A DNA stretch of 64,000 bases from Cloeon dipterum. Lineage: Eukaryota; Arthropoda; Insecta; Ephemeroptera; Baetidae. The notes under the pieces were generated by a model. That model was not told where the DNA came from. It searched no databases and saw only the letters and a list, made by a program, of their open reading frames with translations. Shown one piece after another: positions 8,201 to 11,014 of this stretch. Positions within the stretch are counted from its first letter, which is position 1. Every line of letters begins with the position of its first letter. Position numbers and translations under genes: made by a program. The stretch is from positions 18,900,501-18,964,500 of the forward strand of contig NC_088787.1 of NCBI RefSeq assembly GCF_949628265.1. The letters run 5' to 3'.

Positions 8201-8505
8201 AATTTCTTTCAGCATTGCAACTCTATTGGTGAATGCTGGTTGTAAGGTCCCAGACTACATCATGAAGTTGAATCGTGCTTCCAAAACAGAGAGAAAAGAA
8301 AGGGCAATGAAAGCACCTAAGAGGAAACAAATTTCAACTGAGCCAACCTTTGAAAAAGAGAAGAGATTGAAAATCAGGTATGTCAATTACTTGGTGTCTA
8401 TAACAAATTCTTAAATATTTATTAAACAGGGGAATTATTAAGAGGAAAAAGAATGAACAGTCCAAGAGTGGCAATCAAATGAACAAGACCAGCAAGAAAA
8501 ATTGA
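5215..8505 (+). CDS. DDX52: DEAD-box RNA helicase DDX52 (yeast Rok1 orthologue)
   Basis: ATP-dependent RNA helicase which, in the Rok1/DDX52 family, acts in the nucleolus on early 18S rRNA processing. Twelve coding exons: 5215-5301, 5358-5544, 5612-5778, 5847-6208, 6436-6539, 6595-6667, 6719-7013, 7070-7192, 7248-7398, 8066-8141, 8213-8377, 8430-8505. They sum to 1866 nt (621 aa; human about 599). The N-terminus ([17 protein letters not shown]) fits the family and fixes the start. An acidic Glu/Asp/Ser-rich segment follows (residues about 45-130). Helicase motifs in order are Q motif GYSVPTPVQ, motif I APTGSGKT, Ia [14 protein letters not shown], motif II DESD (the DEAD variant usual for DDX52), SAT, LIFTQT, ARGID and [11 protein letters not shown]. 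The C-terminus is Lys/Arg-rich. All introns are GT-AG and short except intron 9 (667 bp). No key residue is missing. Confidence 0.95.
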
Positions 8506-8517
8506 AATTGCTTTCAA

Positions 8518-8529
8518 AATAAAAATAAA
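8518..8529 (+). terminator. DDX52 poly(A) signals
   Basis: Two AATAAA hexamers, at 8518-8523 and 8524-8529, lie 13-19 nt after the DDX52 stop codon. They imply a very short 3' UTR. The HTD2 stop codon on the opposite strand is only 22 bp further on, so the two transcripts probably overlap tail to tail. Confidence 0.6.
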
Positions 8530-8549
8530 TTTGTATTATTAATAACTAA

Positions 8550-8555
8550 TTTATT
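8550..8555 (-). terminator. HTD2 poly(A) signal overlapping its stop codon
   Basis: On the minus strand the end of HTD2 reads GAAATAAATT. The stop codon TAA (8553-8551) is the middle of an AATAAA hexamer (8555-8550). Used as the poly(A) signal, it would leave a 3' UTR of only some 15-30 nt. Confidence 0.5.
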
Positions 8556-9039
8556 TCTTTTTTGCGCGTTTTTTCTGATCTTCAATTTTGATTAAATTCG
8601 CATCTCCAGACAAAACAAGTCTCGATTCAGCTAAGGTACTGTCCTTGTTTGGCTTTGCCATTACTGTGTACCTGCACTTGATCAAATCCATCTTCATGCC
8701 AGTTAGGATCACACTGACTTCGATAAACTCCCCAACGTGACAAGGATTGGGGTATTTAATGTTCTGGCTGGCCACCATGCTACCTGGCCCAGGCACTTTG
8801 GTGCCCATTATGCAGGACACAAGTGAGTTAAGGAAAGCTCCATGCACTACCGCATTTGGTCCTTGGTGCACTGGATTTGAATCGCCAGACAAGAGGGTGA
8901 AATTCTCCACGTCCTCCATGGTGATTGTTCTTGTAAATGAGGCCTTGTCACCGATTTGATGAGCAGAACACAGTCTTTGGCTAATAAGAATCAGGCGGCG
9001 CGGCGACAACAGTCTCAGCAGCGGAGCAACTTGCGGCAT
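8551..9039 (-). CDS. HTD2: Mitochondrial hydroxyacyl-thioester dehydratase type 2 (MaoC-like hotdog hydratase)
   Basis: Intronless 162-aa protein matching HTD2, the 3-hydroxyacyl-thioester dehydratase of mitochondrial fatty acid synthesis (lipoate-precursor pathway). The first 27 residues are Arg/Leu-rich and free of acidic residues, as expected of a matrix-targeting presequence. The hydratase-2 signature SGDSNPVHQ (residues 51-59) supplies the Asp53/His58 pair expected in the active site, followed by HGAF (66-69) and a short hotdog fold of normal length. The C-terminus is Lys-rich. The start ATG has A at -3 and lies inside the last exon of ARMC7, in another frame. In vertebrates HTD2 is the second cistron of the RPP14 mRNA, so its shared position here is notable. 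No separate promoter was identified. Confidence 0.9.
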   Translation of the reverse strand: MPQVAPLLRLLSPRRLILISQRLCSAHQIGDKASFTRTITMEDVENFTLLSGDSNPVHQGPNAVVHGAFLNSLVSCIMGTKVPGPGSMVASQNIKYPNPCHVGEFIEVSVILTGMKMDLIKCRYTVMAKPNKDSTLAESRLVLSGDANLIKIEDQKKRAKKK

Positions 9040-9737
9040 TTTGTCTTACTTCAGATAAAAAGAGATGTGCCAAATTGGAAATTCTCTTATTTGGGCATCC
9101 AACTAGGTCGGAGAGTCTGTTTATAAGAGGCTTCGCCTGCAAATCTGAGGAGTGGCTCCAGTTAAGTGTATTCGATTTTCCCTCGAAATTTTTTACCTTT
9201 TAGTGAGCTAGGTGTTTTCAGGTAAATTAGTGTTGTTATTGTGCTGCAAACGATTTCCTGGTTTTTCGACTGCAGCAGATCTTGCAGCCTATGAATGCCG
9301 TTGTTTTGCAAGATATATTCTTGATTCTGTGGGTCTTCACAATAATAAAAATCAGACAGTTGCAGGCGCTTCACAACGGATTAAGTATGTAAATATACGC
9401 ACCGACGCAAAGGTTGCAAAGACCTCCGACAGCAAATTCTGCAAGGCTTTCGTCTTCGTCTGGCAGAGTATCAATGAACAAATCAATCACACGATGAAGA
9501 CGCAGGAATTCGAAATTTATTGGGTCGTACGCAAAATTAGCCAAATTTGCCAGGATCTGCCTCTTTGCCTCTGTAAACAATTTATTGTAATCTAATATTT
9601 TGGTTACTAAAATACTGATTTTAATCACCTTGGGAGCGGGTTTCGTGAAATTCTCTGACCAGTTGAGCCAAGTAATCGCATCTGCCGACACCAAATTCAC
9701 CAGTTTTTGTTGCCAAGCTCTCCTTAGAGCTAAACAT
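8981..9737 (-). CDS. ARMC7: Armadillo repeat-containing protein 7
   Basis: Small ARM-repeat protein which, in other organisms, partners RBM48 and acts in the minor (U12) spliceosome. Four coding exons on the minus strand: 9737-9629, 9570-9403, 9334-9197, 9144-8981 (579 nt, 192 aa; human 198). Introns are only 58, 68 and 52 bp. Family matches span the whole length: [20 protein letters not shown], then [38 protein letters not shown] and [12 protein letters not shown]. The splice phases restore residues matching the human protein at each junction. The last 59 nt, including the TAG stop (8983-8981), overlap the start of HTD2 in a different frame. A GTAAGA inside LFLSEV could serve as an alternative donor. 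It diverges from DTWD1 across 248 bp. Confidence 0.9.
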
Positions 9738-9985
9738 CACTAAAAATAGCCATGAAACAAGATTATGCTGCAGCGAAAATGTTAAAGGCTAGGTACAAAA
9801 CAAACCATTCGCGGCTGCCGGCCGGCTGACAGCTGACAGCCAATCAGGTGTCTCTCCTGGCGGTACTCTGTGTAACTATAACGATTTGACTCACATTATG
9901 TTTGTGTATGGTATGGAATTTGTTTTGATATTTATTGTGGTCCACGATTTCGCTTCTACAGAGGATTTTAAATAATTGAATTTAA
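9738..9985. promoter_or_regulatory. Shared bidirectional promoter of ARMC7 and DTWD1
   Basis: Only 248 bp separate the two divergent start codons. The middle is GC-rich (about 9808-9870), with a CCAATCA box at 9840-9846 just after a direct repeat (CTGACAG twice) that includes a CAGCTG E-box. No TATA box is evident, which fits a housekeeping promoter. Transcription starts are not determined. Confidence 0.6.
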
Positions 9986-11014
9986 ATGGAAGTATCGACT
10001 GAGGTAGATGCCAATCCATTTGGCAAATACAATATTTCTGACTGGCATTTTTTGGAATCCATGGATGGCCGTAGCTCCTGCCCAAAATGTGGAAAATCAA
10101 GAAAATACTTTTGCTACACTTGCTATGTGCCCATCAAAGAGCTGGAAGGCAAACTCCCTGTCTTAAATGTAATAGGCTGATTTTAAAACTATAATATTGT
10201 GAACTTGAAATTTTAAACACTTTAATTACATGAAAATATAAATTTAAATTGTTTCAGTTACCCATCAAAGTGGACATTATCAAGCATGCGAAGGAAATCG
10301 ACGGGAAGAGTACGTCCGCCCATGCAGCTCTCTTGGCTCCCAATGATGTCTCAATTTACACATTTCCCTGCATTCCTGATTATGATGATAAAAGTGAAAA
10401 CGTGAGCGAGTCATCGATCAGGAGGGAATGGAAAGATGCTAACGATTTTTTTTCTCAGATTGTTCTAGTGTTCCCTGGGAAGAATGCAATCTCAATCGAG
10501 GAATTTGTTTCTCAGCAATCAGCTGCAAAGGTTGGTGCCAGCAAAAAGAGGCCTTACTCATCAGACAAACCAATAGACAGAGCAATCTTTATTGACAGCA
10601 CTTGGAACCAGTGCAAAGGAATCTTCAAAGACTCTAGGCTGAGAGGTAAATTAAATTATTGTATTATTTTTTAAAACATAACTTTGACGGAAATCTCCTA
10701 TTTTAGATCTTCCCTGTGTTGTTTTGAAGCAGAGAATCACTCAATTCTGGAGACACCAGGAAGGCAGTCCTCGTTGGTACCTTGCCACCGTGGAAGCTGT
10801 CCATCAGCTGCTTGTTGAACTTGACCAGGCCATCAAGAGTCACTCTGCAGACCCTGAATCAAAAAAGACAAAGACGGAAGGAGAAGCTAAGCAAAAAGAT
10901 GACATATCCCACGAGTTTGATGATTTGCTCTTCTTTTTTAAATTTATGTATGAAAAAATCCACACCCTTTATGACCACAACCAACTCAAGTCTTACAAGA
11001 GACCCTTGAAATAA
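9986..11014 (+). CDS. DTWD1: tRNA-uridine aminocarboxypropyltransferase 1 (DTW-domain protein)
   Basis: DTW-domain enzyme that transfers the 3-amino-3-carboxypropyl group of S-adenosylmethionine to a D-loop uridine (acp3U20 in the human enzyme). Three exons, 9986-10168, 10258-10645 and 10707-11014, give 292 aa (human 304). Near the N-terminus is a cysteine cluster, CPKCGKSRKYFCYTCYVP, probably zinc-binding. Then come LPIKVDIIKH, GKSTSAHAALLAP, the segment VLVFPG, the family-defining IFIDSTWNQ (D-x-T-W), FWRHQEGSPRWYLATVEAV and DDLLFFFKFMYE. Order and spacing fit DTWD1 rather than DTWD2. The stop codon TAA is embedded in an AATAAA signal. The start follows an A-rich leader (TTTAAATGG). Confidence 0.93.

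Follow-up and report, generated by a model that had tools for sequence, protein, structure and literature searches.

The window analyzed here is a 64,000-nucleotide (nt) stretch of the genome of the insect Cloeon dipterum (contig NC_088787.1, positions 18,900,501 to 18,964,500; coordinates below are those within the window). An exact pattern of six TTAGG units had no matches, which has no diagnostic value for the taxon. The window includes two genes, ARMC7, for a splicing factor, and HTD2, for a mitochondrial fatty-acid enzyme, both located on the minus strand, and the end of the former overlaps the start of the latter in a different reading frame (Table 1). Joining exons at GT-AG sites produced an ARMC7 model with four coding exons that encodes a 192-amino acid (aa) protein and ends at a TAG codon; its three introns are 58, 68, and 52 nt long, all of them GT-AG and all in phase 1. 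The predicted protein matched human ARMC7 (7dvq_K) over residues 16-171 with an E value of 3.3e-44, the runner-up match having an E value of 8.8e-08, and this full-length sequence match identifies it as ARMC7 rather than another armadillo protein. The alignment spans all three exon junctions, with a two-residue gap directly before the third one, and the human chain is 198 aa long. The acceptor of intron 3 (exon base 9144) was picked for keeping the conserved ARMC7 frame, and we consider it correct for full-length ARMC7 because the residues that follow it align with the human protein. A search of the whole genome yielded four ARMC7 matches, all at this locus, and therefore no second copy was found; no ARMC7 relatives were present among six pattern matches in viral contigs or among 113 in genome contigs. 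Two short upstream open reading frames (ORFs), with AUGs at 9808 and 9753, are found 5' of the ARMC7 start, the latter ORF overlapping it.

HTD2 is a single-exon gene encoding 162 aa in the +1 frame relative to ARMC7. Its product showed homology to human HTD2 (3ir3; E value of 3.9e-18), starting at residue 27, and to the Pfam family MaoC_dehydratas (32.6 bits with a cut-off of 27). HTD2-type MaoC-like dehydratases have an active-site stretch, GD-x-NP-x-H, which is found in this protein as GDSNPVH, aligned with GDVNPLH of human HTD2. Nine residues of the human protein are missing shortly after this stretch. A single-sequence structure model had a mean predicted local distance difference test (pLDDT) value of 35, too low to judge the hotdog fold. 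The whole-genome search for HTD2 returned one match, and hence a second copy was not found. In the HTD2 frame a TAA codon is located upstream of the ATG at 9039 with two sense codons between them, which fixes the N-terminus at this position unless another exon is spliced on. The first 30 residues include four R/K and no D/E, and residues 1-26, which precede the human-matching part, are probably a mitochondrial presequence. The next in-frame AUG, at 8919, is within the part aligned with human HTD2; initiation there would drop the N-terminal stretch as well as the beginning of the aligned part.

Table 1. Features of the C. dipterum ARMC7-HTD2 locus.
Feature	Position	Strand	Remarks
ARMC7 exon 1 (coding part)	9629..9737	-	ATG at 9737, start context TTAGTG-ATG-TTT; homology to human ARMC7 from residue 16
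Out-of-frame AUG in ARMC7	9679..9681	-	C at -3, weak; 28-aa ORF, stop at 9539
ARMC7 exon 2	9403..9570	-	Alignment with human ARMC7 spans its junctions
ARMC7 exon 3	9197..9334	-	Alignment with human ARMC7
ARMC7 exon 4	8981..9144	-	TAG at 8983-8981; last human-aligned codon 9049-9047; acceptor weak, chosen by frame
TATAAA, possible internal promoter	9120..9125	-	In ARMC7 exon 4; distance to the HTD2 ATG, 86 nt
Out-of-frame AUG in ARMC7	9096..9098	-	T at -3, weak; 3-aa ORF, stop at 9089-9087, before the HTD2 AUG
Acceptor-like CTCTTTTTATCTGAAG	9049..9064	-	First exon base would be 9048; overlaps donor-like GAA/GTAAGA (GT starts at 9049)
HTD2	8551..9039	-	Single exon, 162 aa; ATG context GACAAA-ATG-CCG; stop TAA at 8553-8551
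Two-frame overlap, 59 nt	8981..9039	-	HTD2: first 19 codons and 2 nt; ARMC7: final 18 codons, 2 nt and stop
HTD2 residues 1-26, probable mitochondrial presequence	8962..9039	-	Residue charge; human-matching part begins at residue 27
AATAAA poly(A) signal overlapping the HTD2 stop	8550..8555	-	First minus-strand AATAAA below 9200

A preliminary description of this DNA had named the two genes, given their lengths as 192 and 162 aa, marked 8981-9144, which is ARMC7 exon 4, and proposed that they overlap by 59 nt in different frames of one strand. The exon joining, the open HTD2 frame and the homologies to human ARMC7, human HTD2 and MaoC_dehydratas bear this out, the strand being the minus one, and the overlap falls, as had also been described, on the N-terminal stretch of HTD2 and on the ARMC7 tail beyond the human-aligned part. 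The length of the overlap was discarded as evidence. In a sample of 42 ORFs of at least 150 codons from this genome the corresponding alternative frame stays open over 18 codons in 44.9% of the stretches, and for this reason an overlap of this size carries little weight. What stands out is how closely the genes abut: only 7 nt separate the last human-aligned ARMC7 codon (residue 171) from the HTD2 ATG, which leaves no intergenic space. ARMC7 and HTD2 are thus a real, well-formed overlapping gene pair, in which the genes and their abutment are real and the exact extent of the overlap is what chance gives.

The positions of the poly(A) signals suggest that both genes are present in one message. 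Between 9200 and the HTD2 stop the minus strand has a single AATAAA, at 8555-8550. As it overlaps the HTD2 stop, an ARMC7 message ending at the canonical signal contains the complete HTD2 frame. Variant signals in the same interval are ATTAAA at 8760, inside HTD2, the use of which would cut this gene, AAGAAA at 8559, TATAAA at 9125, and AATACA at 9172, in intron 3. From the frames and the signal positions we infer that the ARMC7 message should carry HTD2 in a single shared mature mRNA.

The characteristics of the two start codons and of the DNA between them are consistent with translation of such an mRNA by leaky scanning. At the ARMC7 start (TTAGTG-ATG-T) positions -3 and +4 are G and T, respectively; the HTD2 start (GACAAA-ATG-C) has the A at -3 that the preliminary description had pointed out. 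The latter start, ACAAAATG, contains CAAAATG, which is termed optimal for flies in PMC9681215. Judged by this published fly optimum, and not by a matrix from this genome, the HTD2 context is strong and the first start is the weaker of the two. In the spliced mRNA the two AUGs are 520 nt apart, start to start, and only two other AUGs are found between them (9681 and 9098). Neither is in frame with ARMC7; each has a pyrimidine at -3 and opens an ORF that closes before the HTD2 AUG. A first-order Markov null of the same composition has a mean of 9.1 AUGs and gives P = 0.016. For an ARMC7 lacking Met, P is 0.030 with the Met frequency of the present data and 0.012 with an assumed frequency of 2.3%.

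Our best explanation, to which we assign a little more than an even chance, is that ARMC7 and HTD2 form an overlapping dicistronic mRNA in which HTD2 is reached by leaky scanning. Transcription would start upstream of ARMC7, where a promoter presumably lies in the region common with a divergent DTW-domain gene; the three short introns would be spliced out, and the mRNA would end after the AATAAA that overlaps the HTD2 stop. The ARMC7 AUG would be the initiation site for most ribosomes. Some of them would bypass it, skip the two short, weakly initiated ORFs in other frames or translate them rapidly to their ends, and start at the HTD2 AUG with its strong context; the HTD2 protein would then be imported into mitochondria.

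Several observations weigh against this explanation. The ARMC7 start is not very weak. If the ARMC7 protein is held fixed, two out-of-frame AUGs are nothing unusual, with P = 0.24 using the codon use of the genome or P = 0.13 when its own codons are shuffled. In 19 long ORFs from 264 kb (20 were found and an overlapping one was left out; some may not be genes), on average 11.7% of the segments of 520 nt contain at most two internal AUGs, and 5.5% in addition lack an in-frame one. Human ARMC7 has, by eye, two Met in the aligned part, and low Met is therefore partly a trait of the ARMC7 family. With P values between 0.012 and 0.24 depending on the null, the paucity of AUGs fits leaky scanning but is no proof of it and is only suggestive. 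The fly literature adds two points: loci with polycistronic mRNAs only are reported to be spaced by -34 to 319 nt, compared to -59 nt here, and the FlyBase authors state that most fly dicistrons do not meet the scanning requirements (PMC4528330). Other points on the same side are in the DNA itself, namely the acceptor-like and donor-like sites located exactly at the ARMC7/HTD2 junction, the TATAAA 86 nt before the HTD2 ATG, and, in the rough splice matrix used here, whose frequencies do not stem from this genome, the score of -1.0 for the intron 3 acceptor at 9144 compared to 3.9 for an AG located 8 nt downstream, at 9136. Use of the latter would give a 154-aa ARMC7 without the last conserved part, with a stop (9089-9087) before HTD2.

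Since most fly dicistrons miss the scanning requirements, the FlyBase authors consider that internal initiation may be common (PMC4528330), and HTD2 could be translated here through an internal ribosome entry site or by termination-reinitiation after full-length ARMC7 on the overlapping mRNA. The stop of full-length ARMC7 is 56 nt downstream of the HTD2 AUG, and consequently forward reinitiation cannot work; we regard this account as highly improbable.

The TATAAA in ARMC7 exon 4 could be part of an independent HTD2 promoter located in exon 3 or 4 and yielding an ordinary monocistronic mRNA, in which case the ARMC7 mRNA would merely read through HTD2. This account is not very likely but it agrees with what has been described for flies, where the own transcripts of the 3' gene of a dicistron usually come from a downstream (or external) promoter. 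Against it, the TATAAA encodes ARMC7 residues Leu-Ile-Asn and is for that reason likely to occur by chance; the region 9040-9340 has no strict initiator, DNA replication-related element (DRE) or Ohler motif, and none of its loose initiators, nor its one downstream promoter element (DPE), is at the usual distance from the TATAAA; and the observed/expected CpG ratio is 0.60 in this region compared to 0.92 between the ARMC7 and DTW-domain gene ATGs. In the same scan the region upstream of ARMC7 had no strict promoter motif except an E-box. The motif scan does not separate the two upstream regions and was rejected as evidence.

At the junction itself, CTCTTTTTATCTGAAG/TAAGACAAAATG outranks all other acceptor-like sites of the region in the rough matrix, and the overlapping GAA/GTAAGA, which includes the donor-like GTAAGA at 9049 already recorded in the earlier description, is the third-best donor-like site. 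HTD2 could be expressed from its own mRNA, formed by splicing a 5' exon, either one in common with ARMC7 or an unknown one, to base 9048, nine bases before the HTD2 ATG, most of ARMC7 being removed; the genes would share a promoter and a 3' end but not an mRNA. We consider this unlikely. The acceptor-like site scores 4.2, the highest of any AG in 9760-8500, the inferred ARMC7 acceptors having scores of 2.7, 2.6, and -1.0; ARMC7 intron 2 likewise ends in AAG; and in flies a number of alternative monocistronic mRNAs are reported to come from splices that disrupt one cistron. On the other hand, these scores depend on frequencies that are not those of this genome, and the pyrimidine run of the site encodes a conserved ARMC7 stretch, LAHLFLSE, and may be a coincidence. 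Furthermore, the inferred ARMC7 donors are all 3' of the ARMC7 AUG, so a spliced HTD2 mRNA would keep this AUG unless it had another first exon.

In a further alternative the ARMC7 frame of the main mRNA would not overlap HTD2 at all, either because acceptor 9136 is used, in which case HTD2, located 47 nt beyond the stop, could be reached by reinitiation, or because of a splice at the GAA/GTAAGA. Besides the higher score of 9136, this is suggested by the score of the donor-like site (3.3), above that of one of the three inferred ARMC7 donors (1.5). We find it very unlikely: the product ending at 9087 loses the human-aligned part of ARMC7 after residue 138, the unspliced tail gives a protein of family-typical length, and for the donor at 9049 the AGs inside HTD2 score at most 1.1, and one with a score of 2.7, at 8510, lies past the AATAAA. 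Both 9144 and 9136 could nevertheless be used.

Of 159 dicistronic loci of flies, 45 produce both proteins from dicistronic mRNAs only; monocistronic mRNAs exist for both genes at another 45 and for a single gene at 69 (PMC4528330). Considering these transcript classes together with the spacings and the unmet scanning requirements, a mixture of dicistronic and HTD2-only transcripts is quite possible at this locus, and we favor the idea that HTD2 has some second transcript as well.

The pair is flanked by closely spaced genes on both sides. Downstream, the convergent neighbor is DDX52 (PDB match to human DDX52, 1.3e-25). The DDX52 and HTD2 stops are, by eye, about 45 nt apart (8503-8553), and AATAAA signals are found at 8518 and 8524 on the plus strand and at 8555 on the minus strand; the ends of both mRNAs therefore probably overlap. 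Upstream, a divergent gene with a Pfam match to the DTW domain has a probable start at 9986, and its ATG and that of ARMC7 are about 250 nt apart on opposite strands (9737-9986). This suggests a bidirectional promoter between them.

The arrangement of ARMC7 and HTD2 is unusual but has precedents, and it is a further case of a known type of overlapping and dicistronic genes. A literature search that covered few subscription papers, and that included a full-text search for both names, found no report of this pair. In flies, 18 multiphasic pairs (36 genes) with two-frame overlaps have been described, most of them shorter than 40 nt and five longer than 63 nt (PMC4528330). As in these pairs, of which 26 of the 36 genes are on polycistronic transcripts, coding sequence is common to two genes in different frames, and the 59-nt overlap is in the upper part of the fly range. 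With respect to leaky scanning, stoned and Snapin are cited as AUG-poor loci (PMC11291117), and that of the sloth1/sloth2 dicistron is backed by reporters (PMC9681215). The ARMC7-HTD2 locus resembles all of them in its weaker first start, stoned and Snapin in its few internal AUGs, and sloth2 in the same CAAAATG at the second start. It differs from sloth1/sloth2, in which the genes do not overlap and have a 5-bp spacer (PMC9681215), and from all three systems in that they have reporter support, while ARMC7-HTD2 is known from its sequence. If one mRNA does give both proteins, the locus would be a compact natural leaky-scanning construct and a warning that annotation pipelines may shorten one gene of the pair.

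The closest comparison for HTD2 is with human HTD2, which is a downstream ORF of the RPP14 mRNA, as the preliminary description had stated for vertebrates, and the link is reported to be conserved over 400 million years (PMC4705651, PMC5932603). Both HTD2 genes follow an RNA-processing gene, with which the one in C. dipterum probably shares an mRNA. The upstream gene in C. dipterum, however, is ARMC7 and not RPP14. Four proteins, ARMC7 among them, are described as unique to the minor spliceosome Bact complex, and ARMC7 is reported to bind, together with RBM48, the U6atac cap (PMC11039992). The U12 and U6atac genes are present in this genome, and the minor-spliceosome setting for ARMC7 therefore exists here. 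The RPP14/POP5 Pfam family has three matches in the genome, none of them near HTD2: contig C4 has two, both matching human POP5, and contig C2 has the third, a POP5-like copy at 23.70 Mb. RPP14 itself was not recovered, which does not show its absence. The first part of the C2 copy is, by eye, split over two frames, and this copy is possibly a broken duplicate of the C4 POP5 gene. The systems also differ in that the frames overlap here, whereas the human HTD2 ORF is described as being within the 3' untranslated region of RPP14, and in that the common mRNA is reported in human and predicted in C. dipterum (PMC4705651, PMC5932603). One could speculate that HTD2 came to be downstream of an RNA-processing gene twice independently, with RPP14 (RNase P) in vertebrates and, in the lineage studied here, with ARMC7 (minor spliceosome), the latter pairing being retained because a shared message ties the synthesis of fatty acids in mitochondria to RNA processing in the nucleus; we hold this proposal as a whole to be quite doubtful. 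A link between mitochondrial fatty-acid synthesis and RNA processing has been suggested earlier. If ARMC7 and HTD2 are indeed made from one mRNA, this link would become a comparative test, and animals would have attached HTD2 to an RNA-processing gene in two distinct ways.
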